Part shown: positions 13,910 through 59,688 of the stretch, in pieces
Position numbering within the stretch: the stretch's first letter is position 1
Layout of the letters: every line of letters begins with the position of its first letter
DNA from: Cinnamomum chago
Lineage: Eukaryota > Streptophyta > Magnoliopsida > Laurales > Lauraceae
Assembly (NCBI GenBank): GCA_038049695.1
Contig: CP142451.1
Coordinates: 72,308,001-72,372,000 of the forward strand
Direction: 5' to 3'
Length of the DNA stretch: 64,000 nt
Notes under the pieces: generated by a model
Told to the model about the DNA's origin: nothing
Databases searched by the model: none
What the model saw: only the letters and a program-made list of their open reading frames with translations
Position numbers and translations under genes: made by a program

Positions 13910-16900
13910 TGTTAATAACAGTACCAACTCATCCATGACCTCATAGTCATGTCTTTCATAATCTTTGTCCTCAAGAGTAAGATTGGAGACATCTAATGGA
14001 GCAAATGGTATACAATCATTCCCATTAGTGTCAGACTCAGAAACTCCTCTTCGTGGTGCTTTTAGCACCACATACCAATTTGAAGTATCATCATGTCTAG
14101 AATAAAAGACTTGGTTTGCTTGTGAGGCAACTATAAACGGATCGTTCTCAAATTGATGCTGGCCTTGATGAAGGTTAACTAATGTGAAACACTCTTCAAT
14201 TTTGACACCACTTCCTATATTTGCCCAATCACAATGAAAGATCGGGAGTTTAAACTTGTGATAGTCTAACAAAATCATATCTCTTATAACACCATAGAAC
14301 ACAATATTCCCGCTAACATGTGAGGTATCTCTTGCGCTTGATCAACACATTGTCTCTGCTTCAAGAGAAACACCAGAATTCTGTGTGCAATTTTTAACAT
14401 ATCTTGTGTGGAATCGATTACCATTGATGATATAACCTGAATAAGATTCCACATATGGTTTGGGTCAACACCCTATCCACCACACAAGTTCTGACATGTT
14501 ACTGGCATCTCCAACCTTGACTTTATTTGCTAACCATGCACTAAATGTGTCCATATGCCTCTTTCTTAAGAGGCTTTCATTCCCATGAAGACGTATATCA
14601 GAATGTCGAAGTTCCTCTAAGTGTAATCTGAAAAAGACAAAGGTATATTTAGAAATTAAAAGTGCATAAATAGAAACAAACTAAAAATACCAAAGATGTA
14701 TATCTTTCATGAGAAACTTACTCTCTATACGGTTCTACTTCAGCAGTATTCTCTAGGACATATAAATGGGCAACTTCGAACATGTTAGGAGACAATTCCT
14801 TCAATTTAGCCTTACCAATTGGTCTCCCTTCTAATATAATACGTTCTTCATATTCTTCATATCGGCTTTGTTGAACACCTACTTGAGCTGCTTCCTTTAT
14901 GTAAGGAGCACAAAAACTTGTGCACTCTTCTGCATTATACTTTTCAACCATACAACCTTCGGGATTGGAACGGTTTTTCACAAAACCTTTCAGTACTTTC
15001 ATAAACCTAACTCAAAATGTAAGACAAATTATTAATAGCTAACTCAAGCAGTAACTAAACCAAAGAATTGACTATATAAGACATTGGAGTTACCTTTCAA
15101 ATGGGTACATCCAACGAAACTGTACTGGTCCACCTATTAGTGCTTCTCGAGCCAAGTGAATAGTAAGGTGCACCATAATGTCAAAAAATGAAGGGGGGAA
15201 AAACCTCTCAAGCATACACAAAGTCTCAGCAATTTGGTCTTCAAGTAATTCCAACTTATTTTTGTCAATCTCTCTTTGACATAAGCAGTTGAAAAAAGCA
15301 CATAATCTAAAAATTGCAACCCTAGGCCCCTTGTCTAATAGTCCCCTTAATGCAACTGCCAAAACTTGTTGCATTAGCACATGACAATCATGGGACTTGA
15401 GCCCATAAATTTTACAGTCTTTTAGTGACACATGACTTGCAATATTGGAGCTATAACCATCTGGCAACCTCAACTCAGAAAGTCTTTTACAAAAACTTTT
15501 TTCTCTTTGTTTGACAACACATAAGGTGCTCTTTTGCAGCTAGAGCTGACACCATTTTCCTTCAAATGCAATGACTTTCTGATTCCCATATCTTTCAGAT
15601 CTTCACGAGACTTTAAACCATCCTTTGTTTTGCCTTTAATATTCAATAGAGTGCCTATTAGACTCTCGCAAATATTTTTTTCAACATGCATGACATCCAA
15701 ATTGTGCCGCAACAATAATGACTACAAAATAACCAAACAAAAAGATGTTAAATTCAATAAATAAATTTAAGAGCGAACAAGCACATTGACTTACCTCCCA
15801 ATATGGTAGTTCGAAAAACATTGATTTCTTTTTCCACACTGATTGAGGCTCCACGACAATTTGCTCTTCGTCTTCATCCCCTCTCTTCCTTTTCTTTGTC
15901 TTTTTTTTATTAGCCTTCCCCCAGTCATTTTCGATAGTACTGATCACTTCAAATACTTCTGAACCAGTCAAAATACGAGGTTTTCGTCCATGTTCTTCTG
16001 TCCCATCAAACCAAGATTTCTTTACCCAAAATGGATGATTGTAAGCTAGAAGTCTCCGGTGACCCATGAATACGTGCTTGTGGCTGTTTGTCAACCATTT
16101 TGAGCATGTCTCAAGTCCACATGTCGGACATCCTTTACTGGATTTAACAGCATACCCAGATAGATTTCCATATGCTGGAAAATCGTTTATTGTCCACATC
16201 AAAATGGCTCTCAAATTGAATGTGGATTGAGTAAACGCATCGTAAACACTTACTCCATTCACCCACAGCTCTTTCAAATCATCTATAAGAGGTGCTAAGT
16301 ACACATCAATGTCATTTCCTGGTTGCTTAGGCCCAGGAATGAGTAATGTCAAGATTAAATTATCTTTTGACATGCATAACAAGGGAGAAAGATTGTATGT
16401 GACCAGAATTACAAGCCAACAACTATGTCTAGAGCTAAGATCACCAAAAGGATTGAATACATCCGAAGAAAGGCCAAGTCTAAGATTATGAGGATCAGAT
16501 GCAAATGAGGGCCACTTATCATCTATTCTATTCCATGCCAATGAGTCCACTGGATGTCGCATAATGCCATCCTGACTTTTGTTTGTGTAGTGCCAAGTCA
16601 ATTGTTCACTCTTTTCTGCTGACTTAAACAATCTCCTAAATCTTGGAATAATTGGAAAATACCTCAAAACCTTTGCTGGAACTCCCTTCCTTATCAATTT
16701 GGTTCGTGCATTGACTTTCCACCGTGAATAACCACACTTTGGACATGTCTCAAGATGCTCTAGATCTTTTCGAAACAAGCAACAATCATTCTCACATGCA
16801 TGTATCTTCTCATACCCTAGATAAAAAAGCATTAAATAGCTTTTTGGATGAGTAAAAACTATCCGGAAGTATGTTATTGAGTGGTAGCAATTCATGAACA

Positions 16901-17477
16901 ATCTTGAGAACATCATCAAATGCTTTGTCAGACAGATTGTGTCGAGCCTTTGCCTTGAATAACATAAGTGTTGCTAACATCTTAGTGTGTGTCGATCCTG
17001 AATATAAAGGAAGCTCTGCCTCCTCGACAAGCTTTTGAAAATATTGGTAGCCTCTTTCATCTATATGATCCACATCATCATCTTCGAAACATGCATCTCT
17101 AAACATTTTATATGATGCTGGAATTTCAGCATTTTCAGTTTCCCCTACTGCGGTTGTTTTTTCTCCATGAAAAATCCATGTGGTGTAAGTAGGATCAATT
17201 CCATAATATACTAGATGGTCGTATACTACATTGTAATGATGGTATTTCAAGTTTAAACACCTGATGCAAGGACATTGAATCTTCTCTGGATACCCTTTCT
17301 TTTCTTGAACCTTATATGCAAACTTTTGTGCTCCCTCTCAATATGCTTCTGATGGTCTAAAATAAAGAAAACCCAAGTTTTTTACTAATTAGATCCTAAA
17401 TAGGCATGGGACATCAAATATTTTATAGTGAAGGGCTTTGGAATTCACCTTGGTAGATGAATCCATTCTTTATCCAT
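13910..17477 (-). pseudogene. CACTA#1 TNP2-type transposase gene
   Basis: The catalytic transposase of En/Spm elements. The start ATG at 17477 opens a 29-nt exon (MDKEWIHLP) with donor gtgaat; it joins in phase with exon 2 at 17354. Domains in order are the transposase-associated domain with CPCIRCLN (about 17270), the TNP2 core (about 16880-15800; ACENDCCLF, CPKCGYSRWK, ILTLLIPGPKQPGNDIDVYL, MWTINDFPAYG), DUF4218 (15715-15093; LKSHDCHVLMQQ, FFPPSFFDIMVHL, GGPVQFRWMYPFER), a linker exon 15006-14722, and DUF4216 (about 14628-13910; VIRDMILLDYHKF, FHCDWAN). Breaks are TGA for W at 17338-17336, frameshifts near 16830 and 15480, and stops in the DUF4216 exon. The rest is well preserved. Confidence 0.88.
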
Positions 17478-21942: not shown

Positions 21943-22925
21943 GAAACAACTACAAACCCTCATTATTTCGTTGCTTGTTTCTTTTGGTAGACACATATGG
22001 TTGCTGTTATTACATTGTTTTTGGGCATCTATACCAAACGATTTGCTTTTGGAAATAGAAGGCACAAGTAAAGTGAAGCATAGATCTTGTCAATATCTTT
22101 TTAATTTAATTTTTTTTTTTCATCTAAACCAACTTCCATATTTATATTTAAGAAAAAAGAGAAGTTAGAAATGGGGCCATCCTAACATGCCCACTACACA
22201 ATTCTCACATGTCTATAATGATTAGTGTAGTCATTTTTGTGAGTGGTTACAACCGAATTCCTTTCTTTTGCGACTCATAAGTTTTTCTTTTAAATTTCTT
22301 GGTATTCATAGTTCCACCCCCAAGCGATTTTATTTTTCTTATTCACATACTATTTTGGATTGTCTTAGTTCACTATGCTATTTTTAATGGCTTCATATAT
22401 TGGTTTGAACAATAGCACATGCAGGACTACACTAGTGTAATAATAATATGAAGAAATAACCAAGTAATTGAAGCATGCCCGCATTCTCCCCTTGACTTAG
22501 TTTAGCACCTTCATTAGCTGCCATTTTAAGTTTTGCTACCATAGGGCTGTGCAGCCTTAAGTTGTAAGTTATATTGAGGGAACTCTAGATGGCTCAATGT
22601 TATAATAATGAGGTATATAGGGAAGCCTCATCTTACATTTTGATAAACGAACTCATTTATATACCATTATCACATTTCATTTAGTCATGTGACACGTAAG
22701 TGGGGGTAAATAAGCGTGTGTTTGCTTATTGTTACACACATGCATACATTGCTATGACATTCATGCATAGATCCTTAACCAATGTTCAACATTGGGTCTC
22801 CAAACATGCATTTTCTACTGCTGGTTCATTTTGATTAGATTAGGTAAGAAATACATGAATAATAGCATGAATAATAAGAATACAAGGACTGACCCATTGT
22901 TTCTAATTTCTAATTACTTGTGACT
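21943..22925. other. Upstream region of CACTA#2, no terminus found
   Basis: AT-rich sequence before the TNP2 start at 22926. No CACTA end or subterminal repeat is visible. It probably contains old flanking DNA plus the CACTA#2 promoter, but I cannot place the boundary. Confidence 0.45.
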
Positions 22926-25900
22926 ATGTCAGATATGGACAGGAGTTGGATATTACATTATCAGAACCGATTTAGTGCTAAGTACATAGCTGGGGTGAAT
23001 TCATTTATTGATTTTGCAAAGGCGAATTCCCCCGGGGCAGTGTTGATTAATTGCCCATGTAACAATTGCTATAACCATCGGAAGCATGACTATCTAGCCG
23101 TGAGAAATCATTTGCACATTCATGGAATGATGGTCTCATACCTACGGTGGATATATCACGGGGAACCTATAGTTCAACCCGATGATTCGGATGAGAGCGA
23201 GGATGAATCAAAAGAGAATCAGGATGAATATGATGAGTTGATAGAGGACCATCGTAGGGGAACTTACTTGGATGAAGATACTCAAGAGAGGGATGATGTG
23301 CAGGATTTTGAAAGTTTGTTGAAGGCTTCTCAGCGTGGCCTGTACCCAGGATGCAAAAGCTCAGATACTCTGTTATTGTTTGTCATCAAGATATTGCATG
23401 TGAAGGTAGAAAGTGGGTGTAGCAACAAGTCGTTCGACAAGGTTCTGCAGATTTTTAAGGACTTCTTACCCGAAGGTCATGTGGTGCCGGCCTCAGTTTA
23501 CGAGGCGAAGAAATTATTACGTAACTTGGGCATGGGATACAAGAACATAGATGCCTGCAAACACAATTGTGTGTTGTATTGGAAGGAGAACGCTCAATTG
23601 GATAAATGTCCAGAATGTGAAGAGCCTAGGTACAAGGTCAATGATGGCAAGCGAAAGAAGATCCCTCATAAGGTGCTCCGTTACTTCCCATTGACACCGA
23701 GGTTACGCAGATTGTATATGTCAAGGAAGACAACCACAGAGATGAGATTGCACAGTGATAAGCACGTTGACGATGGGATAGCGCGGCATCCGGTTGATTC
23801 AGTGGAATGGAAAGAATTTGATAAGAAATATCTAGAGTTTGCTCAAGAGACACGTAATGTGAGGCTGGGGTTAGCCATCGATGGATTCAATCCTTTCGGT
23901 AACATTAGCACCTCTTATAGCATGTGGCCTGTCATACTTATGCCCTATAATTTGCCACCATGGATGTGCATGAAGGAGCCATTCTTGATGATGTCATTAC
24001 TTATTCCAGGACCAAACTCACCGGAAAATGATATCGATGTATATCTGAGGCCCTTGGTTGATGAGTTGAAGGAGTTATGGGATCATGGTGTATCGACTTA
24101 TGATGCCTCCACTAAACAGACCTTTCAAATGCATGCGGTTGTGATGTGGACGATAAATGCCTTTCCTGCGTATGGTAACTTTTCTGGGTGGAGCACTAAA
24201 GGTTATAACGCTTGCCCCTCGTGTAACGATGGCTTGTTAGGGGTGAAGTTGAAAGATAAGATTGGGTACATTGGCCATCGGAAATTCTTGGAACTGAACC
24301 AACAATGGCGTAGAAGCAAGGCCTTCAATGGTCAGCCTGAGCGTAAAAGAATTCTTTGGATTTACCGGGGCAAAAGGTACTAGACCAGCTAGAAGAACTA
24401 GCGCCGGTCAAGTTTGGCAAGAATAACAAAAGATTGCATGACTCGGGAGAACTGAATTGGACAAAGAAAAGCATCCTATTTGAATGACCCTACTGAAAGT
24501 GCAAAAAACTTCGACACACCCTTGATCCTATGCACATTGAGAAGAACATCTGTGTATCTTTGGTTGGAACAATTTTGGGCATAAAGGGCAAAGACAAGGA
24601 CACTGAGAAAGCGCGTAAGGATTTGAAAAATATGGGCATCAGGCCAGAGTTGCATTTAGTGGAGAGGGGCGATGGATCCATCTTGAAGCCGCGTGCCTCT
24701 TACACTCTGGAACCAAAACATAGAGATGGGTTTTATGAATTCTTGAAGTCGATCAAATACCCAGATGGCTATCCGGCAAACCTCTCGAGGTGTGTAACCT
24801 CGAAAAATGATAAATTAGCTGGTTTAAAGAGCCATGATTGCCACATCCTTATCCAACGCATCCTTCTTATTGGCATGCACAACTTTCTGAATACGGATAT
24901 CTTTACAACATTATTTGAGTTAAACAGCTTTTTCCAAGACTTCTGCTCGAAAACACAGAGACACGATGATTTTGAAAAAATTGGAGGATCAGATAGTTTA
25001 AATATTGTGCAAGCTAGAGAGGATTTTTCCTCCTGCTTTCTTTGATGTGATGGTTCATCTATCGGTTCACTTGCCACGCGAGGCCATACTTGGTGGACCG
25101 GTGCAATATCGGTGGATGTACCCGATAGAAAGGTAATAGTTGTTGACCATTGATTAATTATTTATGTATTAGTGCAATTACCTTGCATTAAAAATCGTAA
25201 TTGTTATCATTGGTTGTTTAAAGGTTTCTGAAGACCTTAAAAGGGTACGTTCACAACCGAGCTCGGCTTGAAGGTTCGATTGCTGAGGCTTACATTGTCA
25301 AAGAGTGCCTCACTTTTTGCTCAATGTATTTAAGGCAGATTGATTGAGTACAGCGTTATGATGATGGTGGTGAACATGGCCCGGGGATGTCGGTCTTCAC
25401 ACAAACTGTCCATCCCATCGGACTGATGCCAAGGGCACATGATCCTTCTCAAAGAGAGCGTGACATGGCTCATTGGTTTGTGCTGAATAATTGCCATGAG
25501 GTGGAGCTGTATCTACAGTATGTGCTTCAATCTAGCCATATTTATACATTGCTTGTTAATTCCTTTATTCAGTCTCTACTCTTACTTATTCATTAGAAGC
25601 TATCTTGAGTAGGGAACACAAGAATTCAGTGCAAGATCAAAGAGGTGGAGATGTCGGGCAGATACAACAAAAAGAATTTGCAGGATGGTTCAAACAACGT
25701 GTAAGACATATAAAATATTATCATTTTAATTGCTAGATATTATTGGATTACACTTCAAATAACATTAGTCTAATACATTTGTCTTAATTTACTTATGTAG
25801 ATGAATCAATTGCAAACTCTAGGGTCACCAGAAGCTTCTGATGAGATGTGGTCATTAGCAAATGGCCCTAGATCCCTAGTGAATCTTTACCAGGGGTGTG

Positions 25901-40793: not shown

Positions 40794-43571
40794 TTTTTTT
40801 GCTGAATGGGTAAATATATTTAAAAGAAGAGGGAGGGAGAAGCAAGAATACAAAAAGAAGAGGTCAAAAAGGACCCCCAAAAGAACGAAAAGGAACTACA
40901 GGAACTAACAGAAATCCGAAAAGAACAGAGAGACAGAGATAGCCAGACTTCAGGAGCTGGGAGCTCAGCTGGTAAGGCTTCTGTTGCAATTCTCATGGAG
41001 ACGAACATGGCGCTGAGCTGGGAGCTAACAAAAGGAGTAGTCATCTTCCTCATGGAGAAGGAGAAGGCTTCTTGAATTTGGCCTTGAATTGATAAGAAGG
41101 AGGGCCTGCGACTTGCATAGATGGCTTCATTCCTAGCCTTCCAGAGGTGGTAGAGAACTGTGATGAGGATGACAACCATATTTTTGATTCCCTTGGCATC
41201 ATTATCTTTTGAAAGAGATATCCAGATTGACGAGGCAGAGAAGCTTGTAGAGGGAGAAGCCCCTGCTGCTTGAAGAAGCCAGGACCATATGGCTTTTGCT
41301 GTGCTGCAAGAGAAGAAGAGGTGCTCAACTGAGTCTTCTGCTTCACAGCAGGAGATACACCTGGATGCTAAGGAGAAACCCAGACGTTTCATCCAGGAGT
41401 CTGTAGGGACTTTGTTGTGCATCAGTCTCCAGCCAAAGCAGCTAATTCTGGGCGGAGTGATGTTATTCCATATCAGGTTTGGCTAGGGGAGGACCTGACC
41501 TCTACGCCTAGTTTCCTGCCAAGCTTTCCTCAGGGAGAGATTGCCATCTGGAGAGTCTCGCCAGCAGAGGGAGTCTCTTGTGGCAAGGTTGGGAGAGAGG
41601 TTCTGGAGAAGATGGAGAAGATGCTGTTGGACAGGACTTGGCTGGTGGCCAGGGATGACCCATGCTCCTGCTTGGAAGAGGGACGAGAGCCTTTGATCCT
41701 TTGGATATGGAAGGCCAGGGAAGCTAATGGAGATTGGGTCTTGATCAGTCCAGGTGTCGTGCCATGCATTAATATACAGACCATTACCGAAAATCCAAGA
41801 GCTCCCTTGGTGAATGATTTCTGCTGATCTACGAATGCTTTTCCAGATGCAAGAGCCGGTGATGGAGTTCTCTGAGCTCCATATGGGACGATATTTAAAA
41901 TATCGATTCTTGAACCACTTAGACCAGAGGGAGATGGAAGTAGAGGCTTGCCACCCAAGCTTGATGAAGGAAGCTCTGTTTACTTCAGCTATTCTCCTAA
42001 TTCCCAATCCACCTTCTGCCTTTGGAAGTGTGACTTGAACCCAGCTGACATAGTTTAGCTTGCGAGTGAGGGAGTTACCTGACCAGAGGAAGTGCCTCAT
42101 GAACCTCTCGATCTCTTTGCAAACGGAAGCAGGGAGGGGAATTATGGCAGCCAGGTGAATTGGGATACTTGATAGAACATGCTTTATGAGCGTTAACCGA
42201 CCTGCAAAAGACAGTGATCTTGCTTTCCACCCAGAGAGCTTGGACTGGACTGCATCTAGCAGAGGGAGGAAGTGCCTTCTCTTAGGAGTCCCACTGCAAA
42301 TTGGGGTGCCGAGGTATCTAAGGTGAGAAGAGGCTTCTGGGAGACCAAGAACTGAACAGATTCTGCTCTTCCTTCTCAAGCTGCATTTACCAAGGAAAAG
42401 GGAGCTTTTCTGAAGGTTAAAGAACTGACCTGCTGCTTCCTGGTAGGCCTCCAGAAGATCCTGAAGGATTAGAACACTTGAAGATGCCCCTTTCATAAGG
42501 ATTAGAATATCATCTGCGTATAACAGGTGGCAGGGGGTAGTAGGAATCTTTGAGAGGGGAGTGAAGAGGCCTTGGTCTAGAAGACCTTGCAAGTGAAGAC
42601 TCAGAATTTCCTCAGCTAATATAAAGAGGTAAGGGGATAAAGGGTCTCCCTGCCTGAGACCACAGGAGGAACTAAAGAAACCTTGGGGCAATCTGTTTAT
42701 GAGCACTGAACACTTGGAAGTGCAGATGCACTCCTTGACCAAAGAGATCCAGCCTTCTGAAAAATTAAAGAACTGAAGGGCAGCAAATAGGAAGGACCAC
42801 TTCAACTTATCAAAAGCTTTGGTGATATCAAGCTTGAGGCAGAAAGAACCTTTGCTAAACTTGGATTTCAGTTTCTGAAACAACTCAAAAGCCAGGCCAA
42901 TGTGATGCTGAATGCTTCTTCCTTTTATAAAAGCAGCTTGGTGATGAGATATCAGATTAGGAATGATGGAGGAGAGCCTTGAAGAAAGGATTTTTGAGAG
43001 GATTTTATAGGAGAAATTCAGCAAACTTATTGGCCTAAAATCAGCTAAGGAAGAAGGAGACTTGGTCTTGGGAATTAAGGCTAGAAAGTAGGTATTAGAG
43101 GCCCTTAGGATTCTTTTGGAAATAAAGAAGTGTTGGGCAGCTGAAATTACTGTTTGGCCTATGATACTCCAGGTGGCTGAGAAAAAAGCTCCATTGAAGC
43201 CGTCTGGCCCTGGGGAACTGTTTTTGTTGAGAGAGAAGACTGCAACTTTGATCTCCTCAGGAGTGGGAATGGAAGTAAGGAGGGAATTATCTGCAGCTGA
43301 GACCTTGGGGCTGTTTATTTGGAAAAGGGAAGGGTTGGGGTGACTGTCCTGGGACTGGAATAAGTTAGTGAAGTAGTCCACTGCATGGGCTTGAATGGAT
43401 GCTTGGTCATCAGTGATAGAACCATTAATAGAGAGATGGTGGATAGAGTTGAAGGAACTCCTGGCCTTGGCTGAGAGGTGGAAAAACTTAGTGTTTTTGT
43501 CTCCCTCATCCAGCCATTTTGTTCTGGACCTTTGCCTCCAGTGAATTTCTTGGGCTGCAAGGGCCTCATGA
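40794..43571 (-). mobile_element. L1-type LINE, 5'-truncated insertion
   Basis: The 17-bp target duplication at both edges defines the insertion precisely (2778 bp). On the minus strand it ends in a short A-run (seven T on the plus strand at 40794-40800) and starts abruptly inside ORF2, so it is a typical 5'-truncated copy made by target-primed reverse transcription. Endonuclease domain and ORF1 are absent. Confidence 0.93.
40820..43571 (-). pseudogene. LINE ORF2 reverse transcriptase with C-terminal zinc domain
   Basis: The frame is open from the 5' truncation point. The linker before RT includes WLDEGDKNTKFFHLSAKARS. RT motifs are SSPGPDGFNGAFF, LALIPKTKSP with FRPISLLNFSYKI, AAFIKGRSIQHHI, LKLDITKAFDKLKWSF, GLRQGDPLSPYLFILA, and the catalytic LLYADDILIL (YADD codons at 42520-42509). 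A maturase-like thumb is followed by the zf-RVT domain (from about 41460; CISCCEAEDSVEHLFFSC). One in-frame TAG at 41485-41483 separates RT and zinc domain; otherwise the frame is uninterrupted to 40820. This is an L1-clade plant LINE. It lacks the N-terminal AP endonuclease and so was dead on arrival. Confidence 0.92.
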
Positions 43572-50372: not shown

Positions 50373-51675
50373 ATGTCTGGAGGCGAGGCACCCCTTGAGG
50401 CGATAGCGATCGGCGACCAGTCCGTCCACGAGCGTCACTTTGAGAGGTTTCTTCAGGCTTTCCTTGCTGCTCAGGAGGCCCAGGTGACTGCCCATCAGCA
50501 ACAGACAGAGGACTTTACGCAGTTTCAGGCACATGTCCTAGACGTGATCAATAGGGTGGCTCAGCCCGGTTTCGCAGCAGCACTTGTTCGGGATGCAGAC
50601 TCGAACGTTATCTTCGAGAAGTTCCTCAAGAAGGAACCACCAGAGTTCACGGGCGCATTAGTGGCTGACGACTGGATTGTGCGGATGGAGAAGATTTTTA
50701 GAGTCTTCGAGTGCACCGGCCAGCAGAGGGTGCAACTAGCTGCCTATATGTTTAGAGGAGTCGCTGAGGATTGGTGGAGGACTATTCAGCGTCATTACGA
50801 GGCGATCGGGGACGAGATTGCTTGGACGGCTTTCAAGGCAGATTTCCTCCGGAAGTTCATCCCATCGCATGTTAGAGACCGCAAGCTACGGGAGTTCCAG
50901 GCACTGGTGCGGGGCAGTATGACTGTCTACCAGTACGAGGTCCGCTTCACCCAGCTTTCTCTCTTCGCAGAGGCTCTAGTCACGCCTGAGTCGGAGAGGA
51001 TCCGGCGGTTCGTTGAGGGACTGAGGGATGATATCCAGCTGAACATGTCCTGTATCGAGATTCACACCTATGAGGAGGCTTTGAGGAGAGCCTACTGGGC
51101 AGAAGTCAGCGGATAGAGACTGGACAGCAGCAGAGACGGATCCGAGCCGCTCTGGCCAGACCACAGCCCGTGCCCCTACGACAGCAACAGCCATTCCAGA
51201 GGCAGAGGCCGGCAGGTCAGGCAGGGCAGTATCAGCATCAGCAGCAGCGTGGGCCCAGAGTGTACTACTATTGTTGAGAGTCAAGGCACATCTCCAGATT
51301 TTTTCCACTCCGAGGAGGGCAGCCTCAGATGCTTCAGCTTCCAGTACCTCCTAGAGCTCCAGTTCCCGCTCCACCTGTTAAACGGATTGCTCCGGCACCC
51401 CAGCCACCACAGCAGCAGTACCGTGCTCAGCAGCAGCAGGTACGTGGACCCCAGCAGCCTAGAGGGCAGCCTTACCAGCGAAGACGACACCGGAGACCCC
51501 ATGGCCAGCAGCACCAGCAGCAGAGACCCCAGGCTGTGGGTCGAGCTTTCGCGCTCACTCACGAGGACGCAGAGGCCACATGCAACGTGGTGGAAGGTAC
51601 TCTTTCTATCAGTGATCATCTTGTTAGAGTATTGCTTGATCCGAGAGCGACACATTTGTATGTGTCGTCAGCTTT
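50373..51675 (+). pseudogene. Tekay gag and start of protease, interrupted
   Basis: ATG at 50373 follows the primer site by about 150 bp. The capsid domain spans about residues 80-250 (PPEFTGALVADDWIVRMEKI, AAYMFRGVAEDWW, FLRKFIPSHVRDRKLREFQA, MTVYQYEVRFTQLSLFA). A one-base frameshift near 51107 is followed by a glutamine/arginine-rich region and a degraded CCHC knuckle near 51270 (a TGA and a lost final cysteine). The protease begins near 51600; its active site reads LLDPRATHLYVSSAF, where D-S-G or D-T-G is usual, so the P-R at this place is likely damage. At 51676 the Sirevirus-like element is inserted. Confidence 0.85.
51671..51675. repeat. Target-site duplication gcttt, left
   Basis: Matches 59684-59688 on the other side of the inner element. 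Confidence 0.9.
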
Positions 51676-53366
51676 TGAAAGTCCACGGGATCCTAACCCT
51701 AGAGGGGGGGGTGAATAGGGTGTCCTATAAAAATGACCAATTAAAACCAATTTTGATTAATTAAAGAAAACTAGTCATATAACATGATTTACCAGACAAG
51801 ATGCGGAAGCTAAGAAAACAAGCACCACAAGCAAACACCACAACTCCAAGGTTTATAGTGGTTCGGCCTCAATGCCTACATCCACTACCGGCTTGTGATC
51901 CCGGATTTCCACTATTTATGCTTTTTCAAAGGCTAAGCAATAACCTATACAATGTTGTTTTTCTAAGGCTCAACAACAACCTTTACAAGTTGCTTTTCGA
52001 GGCTAAGCAAAAACCTTTACAAGTTGCTTTTCAAGGCTAAGCAAAAACCTTTACAAGTTGCTTTTCAAGGCTAAGCAAAAACCTTTACAAGTTGGATTTT
52101 CTCTAAGAAGGTGTCTCTTCAAGAACACTCTAAGAGATACAATTTTAGCTCAAATGAAATGCCTCTAAATAGGCTAATGTGAAAGTGCAATTCAAATAAC
52201 AAACATACACTAAAACAAACTAAGGTGTGTGTGAACAAGTGTATGCAAGTTGTACTTCAATCAATTTCAAAGGTGAAGCTCTTAATTGTATGCTTGATGC
52301 AATTTAAAATCAAAGCTTGGAAATAGATGATTGAAGATAAAACTAATCACATAAAAGATTCAAACAACTTTGAGGAATTAAGATGACAAGTTGTATGAAA
52401 GTTAAAATCTAAGAATGCATGTGATTTAGTTAAGATAGTTTGCAAACCCATCTAATTTACCAAGGGTGCTTTTGAGTTTGCTAAACATCTCTTTTTAAGC
52501 TAGAAATCATGCATAGAAGGTAATACAAAGATTTGTGCATGCATTGATTTCAATCTTAATGAAAATCAAAATGAAAAGAATGAAATACCTTTTTAAAACT
52601 CTAACATTTGATTTCCAAATAAGCTTCTAGCCTTCTCAAGTTAATCTCCTTTCTTTTTCTTCAATCTCCTCTCAAAAGTTCATTTTTCAAGCCCCTAAAA
52701 GAATGGGAAAAGAAAGGTTTTTAAACAAGAAAAGTGTCTAACGGCTAGTTTACCCGGTTAACCCCATAGCAGGCCGGTTAACCGGGCAAACTCAACGGTC
52801 ATAAAAAGAGCCGTTGAGATTTTGGGTCATTCTGCACTGTGGCCGGTTAACCGGCCTACCATGGCCGGTTGACCGGCTACACTGCCAGAGAACCCTTTTT
52901 GGCCAAAAATCCTGCACAATGCATATTTGAAGATTTCCCTTGGAAGAGATCTTTGGACCTGAAAGACAAGCTTAAAAACATGTTTTATGATATTCTAAGA
53001 TATTAAAAACATGAGACACCCAAGGTCTAAAAAGATTCAAAATGTTTAAGACCAAAGGTTAGCTTGAATTCTAAAAACTCCTTTTTCAAAAACAATGCAT
53101 ACAAATGTGATAATGAAGAGATGAATGCATGCAAAGATCAAACCTAATTTGTCAAGATGATTTTCCAAGTAAGACACAAGGAAATAGGTTCTCAAAGGAG
53201 TTTGGGTTCTAAATCATGCATGAAGTAAATTCATTTCAAAAGCATGTGTATATGCATGAGAGAAATCAAGATCCAAGAAGTCTACATTTAAGAGCTCAAG
53301 TGTGTGATCATGTCAAGGTGAAAGTGTGTGCATCCATCAACCATTGCAACACTCAAGGGCCTAACA
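51676..53366 (-). mobile_element. 3' LTR of the inner element
   Basis: 1691 bp. Compared with the 5' LTR it has two additional 34-bp units of the 'aaggctaagcaaaaaccttt' repeat (51970-52090), an 11-bp deletion at 51902 (the other LTR has 'caatcaccccac' there) and one visible substitution (cttttcg versus cttgtcg). The 1226 bp from 52141 to the end have the same length as 58458-59683 and look identical. Confidence 0.92.
52750..52890 (-). repeat. Palindromic words (CCGGTTAACCGG) in inner LTR
   Basis: Four words: acccggttaacccc, ggccggttaaccgggc, ggccggttaaccggcc and ggccggttgaccggct. An inverted pair caacgg...ccgttg lies between them. The same set is at 59065-59205, and two more words (ccggttaaccgg, ccggttgaccgg) occur in the interior at 56048-56085. 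Confidence 0.85.
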
Positions 53367-53720
53367 ATCTCCCCCTTTGCAATTTGATGGCAACTCCTAT
53401 GATCTCACACTCAATGGACTCTGGATCTTCTAGAAGTCTCTGACTTTGAAATCTCTTGAATAAATCTGATTTTGACGAAAGCTTGTGACAATATTCAAGC
53501 AGATTTCTCCCCCTTGGTTAGAGCTCTCCTTTGCTCTTGAAACCAAGGTCTTGTCATCCCGTTCTTCAGATCTTCTATGCTTTTCTCTCCCCCTGAGACA
53601 ATGCAAGGATCTGAGAGAACTCTGTTCTTTATCTTCATTTCGTAGAGGATCTTGATCTCTTGATCTCTTTCTCCCCCTGAGTCTTGAGAGATCTATACTA
53701 TTTCTCCCCATTTGCCAAAT
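53367..53720 (-). other. Multiple polypurine tracts upstream of 3' LTR
   Basis: On the minus strand gcaaagggggagat abuts the 3' LTR (53380-53367). Further close copies of 'aggggga(g)' occur near 53505, 53588, 53672 and 53705. Repeated polypurine tracts next to the 3' LTR are a described Sirevirus trait. Confidence 0.75.
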
Positions 53721-54150
53721 AATTGCAAAGGAACCTGTATACATGAGCAAACATATACCTTTTAGTAGCACCTGTTAAAAAGAATACAATGGAAGTGCGA
53801 AACAGGCAATCATGTATATAGACTTGTGTAATCATGTTTGAATGAAGCAATGAAAACAGATATAAATTGATTTGATCATATTGTACTCCAAAACAACACA
53901 ACACAACCATCAGGGAGATACATCATGGAGAAAACCAAGATTAAATAAACTTTGTACTTTCATTGATTTAACTTTAAAGTTTAATACAAGTTCATTAAGT
54001 ACATGACCATTTACAAAAAAATACCAAAAGATGGTCAGTACGCAAAACAATGAGTTAGATGATAGAAAAGAAATACAACATGAAATGTCACTCTATCACT
54101 ACCCACAATATCAAAACCCCAAATCAAAAAGAAAAACACTCCTAAAAGAT
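53721..54150 (-). other. 3' untranslated part of inner element
   Basis: Non-coding AT-rich sequence between the env-position gene and the polypurine tracts. No motif recognised. Confidence 0.5.
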
Positions 54151-55356
54151 CTAAGAAGAATCTGGAGGAGAGGGGGTCATGACATCATCATGTCGCCTGC
54201 AGCTCTTGGCGACGCTGGTCATAAACTTCAAGGCCTTTTTCATAAACCCTGAAGACTCTTGTCGATACTCAAGAAACTCTGTCCTCAAGGTAGTAACCTC
54301 GGTCCTCACGGTGGAAACCTCCTGCTCTACGGAAGACAAACGCCCCTCTAGAGATGTCAAGCGAGCACGAACAGATGGTCGAGGAGGTGGCTGAGGCTTA
54401 TCTGGCTGAGGCTGTTGCTGATCTCCAACCGGTGAATCTGCAGCCTCAAGCTCTGCGTCTCCTTCTGCAACTGGATTGGCCCGAGAAGGGGCCTGTGAAG
54501 GAGGAGGGGGAAGCTTCATCAAGTTGATATTGGTCTTGTTGAAGACTGTTGTGCGCTCGGGTCTCTCTGTTTCAGGAGGAGTCACACCAAGAAAGCGGGC
54601 AATCTGAGTGATAAGAAAGCCGAAAGGAGCAGCACAGGGCTGACTACCAGAGATCACACGAATGATATGTCGCATGATAATGGAGGGAAGGCACATGGGC
54701 ACCCTTGTGATCACATTGTGCAAAAGATTGACCATGTAGGGTGTGACTTCAGTCCTATTCCCTTTCCTAGGATAAATTGAGTAAGTGAAAATGTTATGAA
54801 TAATCCTAAGAGAGGGGACCATGAAAGAAGCTGGAAGATAGTTCTTGACCGACCACTCAGCAGGATAGCCACAGATGGAAGTGGTGACAGACTCTCTCAC
54901 ATCTAGAGGAAGAACATCTGAAACTATCTTGGGTCCATTAGACATAGGAATCCCCAAGATGGAAGAGATCGTGGAAACGGTCACTGTCTCCTCACCATGT
55001 ACGAATCGAATGGTGAAAGAATCTTCAGATACGGCTCTAATGGATTCGTATAAGCCATAAACAGAGGAAGCATAGGTCTTGCCACTCCAAGTGAGAATCC
55101 TTTCCCAGCCTATAGCTTCTAAAATGGGAGAAATTTGGTAGTCAACTAGGTCCTCTAAGACACAGAATTTTTCAACAATGATCCCTTTACTCCTAAATGA
55201 TTTCACAGGTGTAAAAGGAGAACGAAGGGGGTTGAAAAGAATTTCACGAGGAGGGATTGGTTCTGGAGAAGAGGAGGAAGATCTACGGGAAGTGGAAGCT
55301 TGGTAGGTTTTGGATTTCTTGAGGGGCCTCCTAGCAGTTTGCTTGGTCCTAGCCAT
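54151..55356 (-). CDS. Env-position protein with histone H3-like N-terminus (putative plant transposon protein family)
   Basis: The ATG at 55356 gives a 401-residue protein, intact to the stop at 54151. Residues 1-9 are MARTKQTAR, identical to the start of histone H3, followed by RPLKKSK and a serine-rich, proline-rich linker. From about residue 45 to 270 comes a domain with IGWERILTWSGKTYASSVYG, SFTIRFVHGEETVTVSTISS, ILGIPMSNGP, YMVNLLHNVITRVPMCLPSI, which I read as the Pfam family putative plant transposon protein (Transposase_32 type). A Pro/Gln/Asp-rich hinge is followed by a C-terminal coiled coil (LTSLEGRLSSVEQEVSTVRT). The frame stays open upstream of this ATG, encoding a hydrophobic stretch, but the H3-like start has the better context and family shape. 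Role unknown; the position matches the env-like gene of Sireviruses. No membrane segment is seen in the 401 residues. Confidence 0.75.
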   Translation of the reverse strand: MARTKQTARRPLKKSKTYQASTSRRSSSSSPEPIPPREILFNPLRSPFTPVKSFRSKGIIVEKFCVLEDLVDYQISPILEAIGWERILTWSGKTYASSVYGLYESIRAVSEDSFTIRFVHGEETVTVSTISSILGIPMSNGPKIVSDVLPLDVRESVTTSICGYPAEWSVKNYLPASFMVPSLRIIHNIFTYSIYPRKGNRTEVTPYMVNLLHNVITRVPMCLPSIIMRHIIRVISGSQPCAAPFGFLITQIARFLGVTPPETERPERTTVFNKTNINLMKLPPPPSQAPSRANPVAEGDAELEAADSPVGDQQQPQPDKPQPPPRPSVRARLTSLEGRLSSVEQEVSTVRTEVTTLRTEFLEYRQESSGFMKKALKFMTSVAKSCRRHDDVMTPSPPDSS

Positions 55357-56579
55357 TTGCAAATAGAAGGTAAAAGATAGCAGGAAAAGGGACCAAGGAA
55401 GAAAAGGCAAAACAGCCCACTTGACAGCCTGTAAACAGTGTGAAAACACACTAAAAACAGTCACAAGAGGAAGAGAGTAGAAGGCTGAAATGGATAGGGA
55501 ATACTGCCAGAGGATGCGGTCTTTCTGAGCACAAGAGGTTACTGCTGCAGAGTCCAACCAGAGACTGAGTTTGAGTGAAAAAACTGGTTCAGACAAATTT
55601 ACAAACAGTTGGTGTGCAATGGAGAGAGCTGGCTGCAACACAACATAAGGCAGCAGGAGGAAATGCCCAAACGGCTACACAAGATACACAGAGAAGAAGG
55701 AAACCATAAAACAAAGAGAAAAGAAAACAAAAACCACACAAAACAGCAACAAAGAAACCACGGAATGGAGAAGCAGCAGGCGGCAGGGAGCACAGAGGCA
55801 GAGATGGAATGGGCGTCAGCGCAGACGAGGTGGAGAAGATGAACACGAGAGAGAGAGAAAAACGAAACCGAGAGAAGAAGGGAATGGAAGAACGAGGAAG
55901 AAGGAACGAGGAAGAAAAGAAGAGCAGGAGAAGAGCAGCAAGCAGGAGAGTCTCAGTCGGTTGGCAGAGAAAAGAAAAAAAAAAAAAAAACTGTTCTGAT
56001 GAAACAGAACAAAATGGCACACAGTCGTTTAAGTGACTGTCGAGCAGGGCCGGTTAACCGGTCCACTAAGGCCGGTTGACCGGGCAGACTGAGTCAGTTG
56101 AGAAAACTGACCAGTCCAGGAGGGAAAAACAGGGGATAAGAAATGTTCAATCTGAAACACTAAACCCTGATTCCCAACAATCATACAAGGTTAAAAACTT
56201 TTAGAAAAGACATTTTCAAAAATCAATTCTAAAATATTTCCTTTGAAATTAAGAAAATTTGTATGATTAAGCTAGTTTTTCAAAACCATTTAAATTTGAC
56301 ACAATCAATAGTTTGACTAAGAAATCACTCAAGAAAAAACATTTTGAAAAACAAATCAATTGAATTAGAAGATACAACAAATTAAGGCTTTTTCAACTCA
56401 ATTGATCATAAATCATGCATATAATCAAATAGCTCCATTATAAAATCACAATGCACAATCATCAAACAAAACTCAATAACATGAGTCTAAAAACCTAAAG
56501 AAATACTAAGAGAGTAGAACCAAGACCAACTAAGCATATGACTATGAGAAAAAGGTTGGTCTCATCTATCTAAGTAACC
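55357..56579 (-). other. Inner element spacer between its two genes
   Basis: This is where protease, RT and integrase would be expected, but none is present. The part from 55600 to 56000 is strongly purine-rich on the plus strand, producing low-complexity minus-strand frames without meaning. Two palindromic words lie at 56048-56085. It probably serves as leader for the downstream gene. Confidence 0.6.
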
Positions 56580-57932
56580 TTAGTAATTTTCTAAAGGTCT
56601 AACCTTAGGTATCCATCTAAGGTCTTGGGCTTTTGAGATTAATTTGGAAATTCCACCAACTAAGAGAGATGAAGATTTAATTTTCTTAGACTTGTCATCA
56701 ATTCTTTGAGATGTAACTAATTTAGGTTGATGATTAGTCTTAGTAGGTTGGTGTTTCTTTTTCTTTTTATTCTTTTCATTTCTTTGAGCTTTTCCTCCTT
56801 CTTTTTGTCTTTTGAATTTCAATTTCAACATTTCAACCTTTTTCAATAATTCTTTCATTTCTAAGGTTAAAGGAGGGAATGAATGAGGATTCTTTTTGAT
56901 AGATTTCTTTTTGACATCCATCTTGGATGACTCTTTTTGAATAGATTTTCCTTGTTTGAAATTCTTAGAGTCTATCTTGGAATTCAATGTCTTACCCTTC
57001 TTAGAATTTGGTTTAACTTTCTTTGGTTCGAAGATGGGTTTATACATATGATTTTTCCTCAATTTGCACTCAAATTTGAAATGTCCTTCTTTTCCACAAT
57101 AATGACATTTTGTCTTGGACATTTGAGAGATAGTGCTAGAGAAAGAGGACTCACCTTTCACAAAGGTGTTGGTGAATTTAGGGTCATGTGTAGTATGCTT
57201 ATTAAAACCAAGACCCGTCCTATCTCCATGAGGTTTACCCAATTTGAATAATTTTTCAAGTCTCTCTTCACTTTGGATAAACTTGCACTCATACTTTTGT
57301 TTATATCCTTCAAGTTGAGTGACTTTGGTTATAAGGATTGAATTTTCATTTTTGACTTTAGAAAGTTCATTTTCAATTTCCTTATATTTGATTAGCTCTT
57401 CATGGGCAAGTTTTAATTCAAGTTGTAGTTCATTAACAACATTAGGTCCAAGCTCTTGGGTTTTTAACTTACTTTTAATCAACTTGGATTCTAAATTGTT
57501 AAAATCTTTGTCTTGCCTTTTTATATGATCTTTTAAATTTAAATTTTCTTTTTCAAGATCATTATAACTTATCTTAATTTCCTTTAGTTCATCTTTGATA
57601 TTGGATAAGTTATTTAATGAGATCATGAACTTAGAGTCTAGACATTTTATCACTTCTTCTTTCTCTCTAAGCTCATCTTTTGAAGAGACTAGTTCTTTGT
57701 TTAGTCTTTTTGATTCTTCTCTTAGTTTCTTATTTTTCTTGTTAAGCTCTAGAGATAGAGTGTATAATTCTTCATAGGCTTGTTGGACATCCTCTTCATC
57801 ATAATTTTCTTCTTCATTTAAATCACATTGAGATTCTTTTAATTGAATATTAGAATCTCCAATAGATGGAAGAGTGAGGGATCTAGAAGAATCTACACAA
57901 TAGCCTAAACAATCTAGCTTAGTGGACTCCAT
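56580..57932 (-). CDS. Gag-like protein of inner element (coiled coil plus CCHC)
   Basis: First ATG after the primer site is at 57932, giving 450 residues (MESTKLDCLGYC...). An acidic segment with DEEDVQQAYEELYTLSLELN starts a long coiled coil (about residues 45-215; NKKNKKLREESKRLNKELVS, LESKLIKSKLKTQEL). The motif KPHGDRTGLGFNKH and a zinc knuckle CHYCGKEGHFKFEC (C-x2-C-x4-H-x4-C) follow at about residues 235-290. The C-terminal third is lysine-rich and ends WIPKVRPLENY. This is the C-terminal half of a Copia/Sirevirus gag; the N-terminal capsid (UBN2-type) domain is missing. The frame is intact. It could bind element RNA or join gag particles of an autonomous partner through the coiled coil; that is inference. 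Confidence 0.85.
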   Translation of the reverse strand: MESTKLDCLGYCVDSSRSLTLPSIGDSNIQLKESQCDLNEEENYDEEDVQQAYEELYTLSLELNKKNKKLREESKRLNKELVSSKDELREKEEVIKCLDSKFMISLNNLSNIKDELKEIKISYNDLEKENLNLKDHIKRQDKDFNNLESKLIKSKLKTQELGPNVVNELQLELKLAHEELIKYKEIENELSKVKNENSILITKVTQLEGYKQKYECKFIQSEERLEKLFKLGKPHGDRTGLGFNKHTTHDPKFTNTFVKGESSFSSTISQMSKTKCHYCGKEGHFKFECKLRKNHMYKPIFEPKKVKPNSKKGKTLNSKIDSKNFKQGKSIQKESSKMDVKKKSIKKNPHSFPPLTLEMKELLKKVEMLKLKFKRQKEGGKAQRNEKNKKKKKHQPTKTNHQPKLVTSQRIDDKSKKIKSSSLLVGGISKLISKAQDLRWIPKVRPLENY

Positions 57933-58035
57933 GTCAAGGGAATTCAAACAAAACACAAATCTAGGGTTATAAACTCTAGGTTTTTACACCTAATCAAGAG
58001 TTCCAACTACTTGATCCTATAAGATAGAGCACGAG
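57933..58035 (-). other. 5' leader of inner element
   Basis: About 100 bp between primer site and gag ATG, without features. Confidence 0.5.
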
Positions 58036-58047
58036 GCTCTGATACCA
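58036..58047 (-). other. Inner element primer binding site (tRNA-Met)
   Basis: Minus strand tggtatcagagc, two bases after the 5' LTR end at 58050. It fixes the orientation of the element. Confidence 0.95.
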
Positions 58048-58049
58048 AT

Positions 58050-59683
58050 TGAAAGTCCACGGGATCCTAACCCTAGAGGGGGGGGTGAATAGGGTGTCCT
58101 ATAAAAATGACCAATTAAAACCAATTTTGATTAATTAAAGAAAACTAGTCATATAACATGATTTACCAGACAAGATGCGGAAGCTAAGAAAACAAGCACC
58201 ACAAGCAAACACCACAACTCCAAGGTTTATAGTGGTTCGGCCTCAATGCCTACATCCACTACCGGCTTGTGATCCAATCACCCCACCGGATTTCCACTAT
58301 TTATGCTTTTTCAAAGGCTAAGCAATAACCTATACAATGTTGTTTTTCTAAGGCTCAACAACAACCTTTACAAGTTGCTTGTCGAGGCTAAGCAAAAACC
58401 TTTACAAGTTGGATTTTCTCTAAGAAGGTGTCTCTTCAAGAACACTCTAAGAGATACAATTTTAGCTCAAATGAAATGCCTCTAAATAGGCTAATGTGAA
58501 AGTGCAATTCAAATAACAAACATACACTAAAACAAACTAAGGTGTGTGTGAACAAGTGTATGCAAGTTGTACTTCAATCAATTTCAAAGGTGAAGCTCTT
58601 AATTGTATGCTTGATGCAATTTAAAATCAAAGCTTGGAAATAGATGATTGAAGATAAAACTAATCACATAAAAGATTCAAACAACTTTGAGGAATTAAGA
58701 TGACAAGTTGTATGAAAGTTAAAATCTAAGAATGCATGTGATTTAGTTAAGATAGTTTGCAAACCCATCTAATTTACCAAGGGTGCTTTTGAGTTTGCTA
58801 AACATCTCTTTTTAAGCTAGAAATCATGCATAGAAGGTAATACAAAGATTTGTGCATGCATTGATTTCAATCTTAATGAAAATCAAAATGAAAAGAATGA
58901 AATACCTTTTTAAAACTCTAACATTTGATTTCCAAATAAGCTTCTAGCCTTCTCAAGTTAATCTCCTTTCTTTTTCTTCAATCTCCTCTCAAAAGTTCAT
59001 TTTTCAAGCCCCTAAAAGAATGGGAAAAGAAAGGTTTTTAAACAAGAAAAGTGTCTAACGGCTAGTTTACCCGGTTAACCCCATAGCAGGCCGGTTAACC
59101 GGGCAAACTCAACGGTCATAAAAAGAGCCGTTGAGATTTTGGGTCATTCTGCACTGTGGCCGGTTAACCGGCCTACCATGGCCGGTTGACCGGCTACACT
59201 GCCAGAGAACCCTTTTTGGCCAAAAATCCTGCACAATGCATATTTGAAGATTTCCCTTGGAAGAGATCTTTGGACCTGAAAGACAAGCTTAAAAACATGT
59301 TTTATGATATTCTAAGATATTAAAAACATGAGACACCCAAGGTCTAAAAAGATTCAAAATGTTTAAGACCAAAGGTTAGCTTGAATTCTAAAAACTCCTT
59401 TTTCAAAAACAATGCATACAAATGTGATAATGAAGAGATGAATGCATGCAAAGATCAAACCTAATTTGTCAAGATGATTTTCCAAGTAAGACACAAGGAA
59501 ATAGGTTCTCAAAGGAGTTTGGGTTCTAAATCATGCATGAAGTAAATTCATTTCAAAAGCATGTGTATATGCATGAGAGAAATCAAGATCCAAGAAGTCT
59601 ACATTTAAGAGCTCAAGTGTGTGATCATGTCAAGGTGAAAGTGTGTGCATCCATCAACCATTGCAACACTCAAGGGCCTAACA
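58050..59683 (-). mobile_element. 5' LTR of the inner element
   Basis: 1634 bp, near-identical to the 3' LTR apart from the repeat-number change and the 11-bp gap described there. Contains the ccggttaaccgg words at 59065-59205. Confidence 0.92.
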
Positions 59684-59688
59684 GCTTT
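59684..59688. repeat. Target-site duplication gcttt, right
   Basis: Matches 51671-51675. Confidence 0.9.

Follow-up and report, generated by a model that had tools for sequence, protein, structure and literature searches.

A histone H3-like N-terminus under purifying selection in an env-position gene of a plant retrotransposon family

The 401-amino acid protein encoded at the env position of a young LTR retrotransposon in Cinnamomum chago begins, after its methionine, with the first six residues of histone H3. Across the copies of this gene in the genome, purifying selection on these residues, ARTKQT, is strong, and the tightly constrained unit comprises residues 1-6 and ends at residue 7. 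We consider it probable, at roughly 0.58, that this start was selected to mimic residues 1-6 of the H3 tail, whether its role is to tether the element to a host factor or to act as a decoy. The element was found in a 64,000-nucleotide stretch of contig CP142451.1 (assembly GCA_038049695.1, forward-strand positions 72,308,001 to 72,372,000), which we call the window and whose coordinates are used below. Residues are counted as in H3 (A = 1), domain coordinates count the methionine as 1, and the label env refers only to the position of the gene.

Results

The env-position gene lies at 54151..55356 on the minus strand. A preliminary description, made from the letters of the window, had placed MARTKQTAR at the first ATG of this gene, and that is where it is found: the minus-strand ORF 55356..54151 opens with MARTKQTARRPLKKSK. 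The N-terminus reproduces H3 residues 1-6, where at least residues 1-4 are expected of an H3K4-tail mimic. The codons for M-ARTKQT (55336..55356) are a copy of H3 1-6 by sequence and are constrained by codon-level selection. They are followed by the unconstrained residue-7 codon (55333..55335; pN/pS 0.84), which encodes A in the window copy and W, F, A or S in most relatives, and by a basic stretch, RRPLKKSK, at residues 8-15 (55309..55332), which may be a nuclear localisation signal. The N-terminal peptide is ARTKQTARRPLKKSK, with W7, F7 and S7 as natural variants at residue 7. Further along, residues 82-258 (54583..55113) form a Transposase_32-like domain, matched by Pfam PF20167 at E=3.2e-10 with 40.6 bits against a gathering cut-off of 45. 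A long C-terminal helix, probably a coiled coil, is predicted for residues 329-393 (54178..54372) by a single-sequence AlphaFold2 model that is poor as a whole (mean pLDDT 43.9) and of which this helix is the best part (10-residue pLDDT means of about 55-83). Residues 1-56 have no secondary structure in the same low-confidence model, which only suggests that the H3-like N-terminus is accessible. When a 39-residue query (55237-55353) was compared with solved structures, histone chains were absent from the hits with E values of 10 or less, the query being too short for this to carry meaning.

The gene belongs to an LTR retrotransposon on the minus strand (51676..59683), recognised by its LTR pair, TSD, primer binding site and PPTs. 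The element is inserted in a Gypsy element whose ORFs flank it on the plus strand, with a Gypsy-type gag on the left and, on the right, protease, reverse transcriptase, RNase H and the zinc-binding domain of integrase. Its 5' LTR (58050..59683, 1634 bp) and 3' LTR (51676..53366, 1691 bp) show a single substitution over 1623 aligned bases and also differ in length, and the TSD GCTTT stands on both sides (left 51671..51675, right 59684-59688). The element is young, and calling it the youngest, as had been done before, is reasonable given the near identity of its LTRs, its TSD and its nesting in Gypsy, with the proviso that it is the only element of the window that was dated. A 34-bp unit within the LTR is present in unequal copy number (51901-52099 and 58286-58416), which probably explains part of the 57-bp difference in LTR length. 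The primer binding site TGGTATCAGAGC (58036..58047), which follows the 5' LTR, is presumably complementary to the initiator Met tRNA, and a gag-like ORF of 458 amino acids (56580..57956) begins shortly after it. This ORF has a coiled-coil-like region, seen by eye, and a CCHC zinc knuckle (zf-CCHC, Pfam E=3.3e-4); no capsid-type domain was found in it in Pfam at E up to 1. Its relatives likewise have only short frames, of 433-479 amino acids, among the best 92 of 9216 first-look candidates.

At the other end of the element a terminal PPT, AGGGGGAG (53369..53376), lies exactly 10 bp before the 3' LTR, and three further copies (53507-53514, 53587-53594 and 53671-53678) stand in the interval from the gene to that LTR. 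All four octamers are 3' of the gene and within 312 bp of the LTR. This octamer near the 3' LTR is a Sirevirus signature (PMC2829016). No pol was found in the window element, whose minus-strand frames of at least 80 amino acids are, by eye, gag, env and four short ones. It has the terminal PPT at 10 bp and the clustered PPTs after env that characterise Sireviruses and shows no pol in copia order with a reverse transcriptase of that lineage, so we class it no further than as an element that has Sirevirus signals and is pol-less. Among relatives of the env-position gene, the tail of gag was seen by eye within 1.5 kb upstream in 19 of 30, and the 4 kb upstream, read in three, contained a primer binding site and gag without pol in two and neither in one. 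Elsewhere in the window there are two Transposase_21 (tnp2) ORFs (15681-16919, minus strand, and 22920-24383, plus strand), which we take to be CACTA-type, and a minus-strand ORF with an RVT_1 reverse transcriptase (41483-43381) that is probably a LINE.

Is the motif the true N-terminus of the protein? The leader before the start codon (55357..55656) is pyrimidine-rich and ATG-poor, with 71% C+T in its last 100 nt; in the 27 copies read, the pyrimidine share of the 100 nt preceding the start is 61-75%. The window copy has an open frame 5' of the start, to about 55674, without an in-frame ATG, so the ATG of the motif is the first in frame, and the nearest upstream ATG is at -290. Of 90 copies read, the window copy among them, 66 have an in-frame stop within 10 codons upstream of the start, and in all 90 the 30 nt ahead of the start are free of ATG. 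For most of these copies, at the least, the protein therefore truly begins with the motif. Translation from further upstream, which would make the motif internal and had been named in advance as evidence against mimicry, is disfavoured by the upstream stops. The +4 position is G in 98 of 99 copies, and ATGGCT is a common start context in plants.

The same N-terminus is repeated across the genome and so is not peculiar to the window copy. A DNA pattern for MARTKQT has 364 sites in the 1.06-Gb genome and the reversed pattern has one. Some of the 364 are H3 genes, of which five H3-like loci were seen, and all 16 codon-diverse sites picked among the matches listed begin like the 401-amino acid gene and not like H3, two of them losing similarity after 15-22 residues. 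Chance in a single copy is ruled out by these sites together with the codon-level constraint described below; the count itself points to a repeated family, and any meaning rests on that constraint. Whole-protein search gave relatives of 63-100% identity (the best 103 of 1715 first-look candidates), and exact MARTKQT is kept in 79 of these 103: 75 of the 99 that align from the start, one tandem copy, and three that read MARTKQTW before a frameshift. Nineteen of the 24 inexact start-aligned copies deviate by one residue. Intact relatives lacking the motif had also been listed as counting against mimicry, and they exist to a limited extent: seven of 34 stop-free copies deviate, six by a single residue. 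As a point against mimicry, the exact motif is not enriched in stop-free copies (27/34 versus 48/65, p = 0.63, with the 27/34 leaving out one frame-shifted copy, L146, of 35 that are stop-free).

A second sample was chosen by gag, regardless of the env-position gene, and gave exact MARTKQT in 36 of 40 elements. It was drawn from the best 92 of 9216 first-look candidates: 22 were all the scored matches on C1, C2 and C3 below 80.35 Mb, paired by eye with the list of pattern sites, and 18 were hand-picked from the other 70. The first 22 include 20 exact motifs, 19 of them at 2.4-2.6 kb from the gag start and one at 4.5 kb, together with one MAQTKQT and one element without such a gene at the expected place; the other 18 include 16 exact motifs, one MARTK followed by a stop, and one element without the gene at the expected place. 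Some copies stand in regular tandem arrays, two to five in a row at intervals of 6.1-6.4 kb, near C10:21359093-21385701, C4:78061460-78075518, C9:34239118-34251290, C12:11335478-11343199 and C3:119693204-119700936. This spacing comes near to 6374 bp, the length of the element without one of its LTRs, and adjacent copies therefore probably have LTRs in common.

Conservation within the motif is uneven. Among the 99 copies aligned from the start, 96 keep A1, 87 keep R2, all 99 keep T3 and K4, 93 keep Q5 and 92 keep T6, and residue 7 is W in 32, F in 25, A in 22, S in 18, T in one and a stop in one. R8 and R9 are each kept in 94 and K12 in 99; outside residues 1-6 the N-terminal sites K12, K15, S25 and S29 are about as invariant, which counts against mimicry. 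The replacement of H3 K9 by arginine, pointed out before for the window copy, extends to the family: 94 of 99 copies have arginine at residue 9 and a single one has lysine, which excludes K9 methylation in nearly all copies. Pairwise pN/pS is 0.099 for codons 1-6 (bootstrap 0.066-0.133), with pS = 0.56 across these codons, compared with 0.84 for codon 7, 0.29 for codons 8-16, 0.33 for codons 17-38 and 0.21 for codons 39-78. With 60, 27 or 14 cluster representatives codons 1-6 still have the lowest pN/pS (0.114, 0.113 and 0.132, respectively), the interval with 14 representatives (0.044-0.237) overlapping that of codons 39-78 (0.182-0.265).

Changes were also counted by parsimony, and treated as independent, on a tree of codons 8 and beyond for 116 copies, of which 99 are the start-aligned ones and 17 come from the gag sample. 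No amino-acid change was counted at T3 in 22 codon changes, nor at K4 in 14. For residues 1-6, 28 of 113 codon changes alter the amino acid, compared with 66 of 126 for residues 8-16 (Fisher p = 1.9e-5) and 17 of 25 for residue 7 (p = 8e-5). Constraint on Q5 is weaker, since it shows six amino-acid changes and no synonymous change, and 10 of the 12 codons in which R2 is lost are as expected from CpG decay. This evidence of selection covers the best-scoring copies of one genome. It rejects an absence of constraint on the first codons, as far as codons 1-6 are concerned, and it trims the nine-residue copy of H3 that had been proposed: residues 1-6 are constrained, residue 7 is free, and R8 and R9 belong to a longer basic stretch. 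Of the preliminary description, this much is supported: the identity with H3 is real, occupies the extreme N-terminus, extends through the family and is strongly protected by purifying selection.

The copies have exchanged parts. In two relatives that were read (L009/L294 and L011/L295), compared with window 54151-57956, gag is more than 98% identical and the env-position protein about 60% identical, and the first 32 nt of the gene are common to the window copy and to the clade with the about 60% identical protein. The 3' gene was probably swapped between backbones, with a junction near its first 32 nt. The shared 32 nt, the divergent protein and the near-identical gag indicate that modules recombine; N-termini can be exchanged between copies in this way, which counts against treating them as fully independent.

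Viral sequences provide a point of reference. A protein search of IMG/VR confirmed no viral relative of the 401-amino acid protein. The MARTKQT DNA pattern was found there in 115 stretches, of which 80 were listed and translated, and the proteins of at least 60 amino acids among the 80 are neither H3 nor the env-position gene, many of them reading MASTKQT through an ambiguous codon. About six unrelated groups, judged by eye, do read MARTKQT (for example L191, L192, L193, L202, L214 and L248). They are only taken to be phage proteins, and if they are, histone mimicry would be senseless there. Because unrelated viral-contig proteins also start with MARTKQT, identity alone proves nothing, and these starts are a useful chance control for claims of identity with the H3 tail.

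Discussion

How might an H3-like N-terminus serve a retrotransposon? Removal of the methionine would expose ARTKQT with a free alpha-amine. Behind this tail come the basic import-like stretch, the Transposase_32-like domain and the C-terminal helix, which probably oligomerises the protein and would make it a multivalent mimic of the H3 tail. The tail would dock on a nuclear host protein that recognises or alters K4 in the N-terminus of H3, the candidates being PHD-type readers, WDR5-like adaptors and LSD1-type demethylases. PHD fingers bind H3 A1-K4 in a conserved extended form, and the path of the peptide is variable after K4 (PMC5415848). An LSD1-family enzyme of Arabidopsis, LDL2, removes H3K4me1 and thereby promotes the silencing of many TEs (PMC11204290), so the H3K4 pathway is relevant to transposable elements in plants. 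The role that we favour for the protein is to tether the RNA, particle or locus of the element to such a factor, with a decoy that blunts silencing close behind. Tethering is preferred because pol-less copies keep the gene, and it is simpler to see why such parasites would retain a gene that works in cis. The translation, nuclear location, binding partner and role of the protein are predictions. A more ambitious version, to which we hold only tentatively and with the odds somewhat against it, is that the tail would be a true N-terminal H3 mimic throughout the lineage, with K4 read and perhaps methylated by the host, and would recruit or neutralise H3K4-reading factors, K9 methylation being impossible.

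Could the same six residues have been selected without mimicry? A short basic N-terminus, chosen for its charge and hydrogen bonding in nuclear import or nucleic-acid binding, might spell H3 1-6 by convergence; this is the main rival reading, and we regard it as rather unlikely. Other Transposase_32 proteins of the same genome do have basic starts, such as MAPKKR.., MASKKRSH.., MAPKPSHSRKKT.. and MPPKTFKGK.. (readable in 11 of 20 loci sampled from 150 listed); these are not H3-like, so the likeness to H3 is so far seen only in this lineage. The basic stretch adjoining the motif, RRPxKKSK, is also conserved, and several unrelated viral-contig proteins open with MARTKQT. However, if charge alone were selected, K and R would be interchangeable at R2 and K4, as would S and T at T3 and T6, yet T3 and K4 are invariant in all 116 copies, residue 7 next to them is free, and residues 1-6 are more tightly constrained than the basic stretch at 8-16. 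Much less credible, indeed the least probable of the explanations considered, is constraint on the DNA or RNA of the gene start (through translation context, splicing or packaging) or a recent spread from a single master copy. The ATGGCT start context with its nearly fixed +4 G and the 32 nt common to clades whose proteins are about 60% identical would fit it, but all of codons 1-6 except Q5 vary synonymously, pS is 0.56 and about three quarters of the 113 codon changes leave the amino acid intact. Such synonymous variation within the motif argues against both DNA-level constraint and mere recent copying, and already contradicts them.

The preliminary description left open whether the motif arose by convergence or from an H3 5' end captured from the host. 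Capture is compatible with mimicry and very improbable. Codons 0-8 match four H3 genes of the same genome at 20-23 of 27 nt, but identity drops to 3-4 of 18 nt immediately afterwards, and the amino-acid identity by itself forces most of the nucleotide match; capture is thus not supported, and so few codons cannot decide. A different matter is the trans-acting anti-silencing decoy, which falls within the probability given above for mimicry and, taken by itself, is unlikely. Here the free H3-like tail would occupy silencing factors that need the H3 N-terminus, and LSD1-type LDL enzymes, UHRF1-type VIM, ATXR5/6 and SHH1 are candidate targets. The arginine at residue 9 would suit such a decoy, as would the part played by LDL2 in silencing many TEs through H3K4me1 removal (PMC11204290) and the existence of anti-silencing proteins, the VANCs, in plant TEs (PMC5735166). 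On the other hand, a benefit in trans would reach non-coding copies too, yet pol-less copies retain gag and the env-position gene, and abundant cellular H3 would have to be outcompeted. The H3 tail follows a folded-back path in LSD1, which a W or F at residue 7 may not fit. Mimicry in general meets a similar difficulty, since the W or F present there in 57 of 99 copies may be incompatible with any reader in which the tail folds back.

The SNAG domains of animal transcription factors such as SNAI1 and GFI1 are N-terminal H3-tail mimics for LSD1, with a sequence that is not ARTKQT; they place an N-terminal H3-like peptide on a host protein, as is found here on an element protein. Influenza A NS1 carries ARSK, an H3K4-like sequence that is likewise a viral, unstructured copy of H3 A1-K4 engaging H3K4-binding host proteins; its partners are CHD1 and MORC3-CW, and WDR5 is also named (PMC10612106). 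Whereas the NS1 mimic has four residues in a C-terminal tail without a free N-terminal amine (PMC10612106), the putative mimic of the plant family has six residues at the very N-terminus. With Sireviruses that have an env-like gene, the window element shares the AGGGGGAG PPT 10 bp before the 3' LTR, several PPTs after the env-like gene and an ORF at the env position (PMC2829016). Unlike them it is without pol and has a gag-like ORF without a detected capsid domain, and the available text of that account does not mention an H3-like N-terminus for Sireviruses (PMC2829016).

Two further systems bear on what the protein might do. The targeting domain of Ty5 integrase resembles the host protein Esc1 and docks on Sir4, a case in which a retrotransposon protein has been likened to a host chromatin protein (PMC4700185), and by analogy Ty5-Sir4 may serve as a precedent for the favoured tethering role. 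The Ty5 example concerns an integrase in yeast and was tested experimentally (PMC4700185), and ours concerns a predicted env-position protein. VANC of VANDAL is a plant TE accessory protein that acts on host silencing, a role only proposed here; it binds DNA motifs, and no H3-like tail was found described for VANC in the available part of that source (PMC5735166). Judged by titles and the openings of abstracts, none of the open-access papers listed for the motif or for histone mimicry by plant transposable elements appears to report a plant retrotransposon protein with an H3-type N-terminus, and the 401-amino acid family is filed as a variant of histone mimicry, as an unproven member. The function of the env-like genes of plant retroelements lacked experimental proof as of 2010 (PMC2829016), and a selected H3 1-6 tail assigns one such gene a specific class of candidate partners, the proteins that bind the H3 N-terminus. 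The variation of residue 7 among A, S, W and F beside the constrained residues 1-6 would, if mimicry holds, offer a natural specificity series for H3K4 readers. If mimicry is the correct reading, plant elements would join viruses in histone mimicry, and this family would be the TE counterpart of the viral histone mimics.
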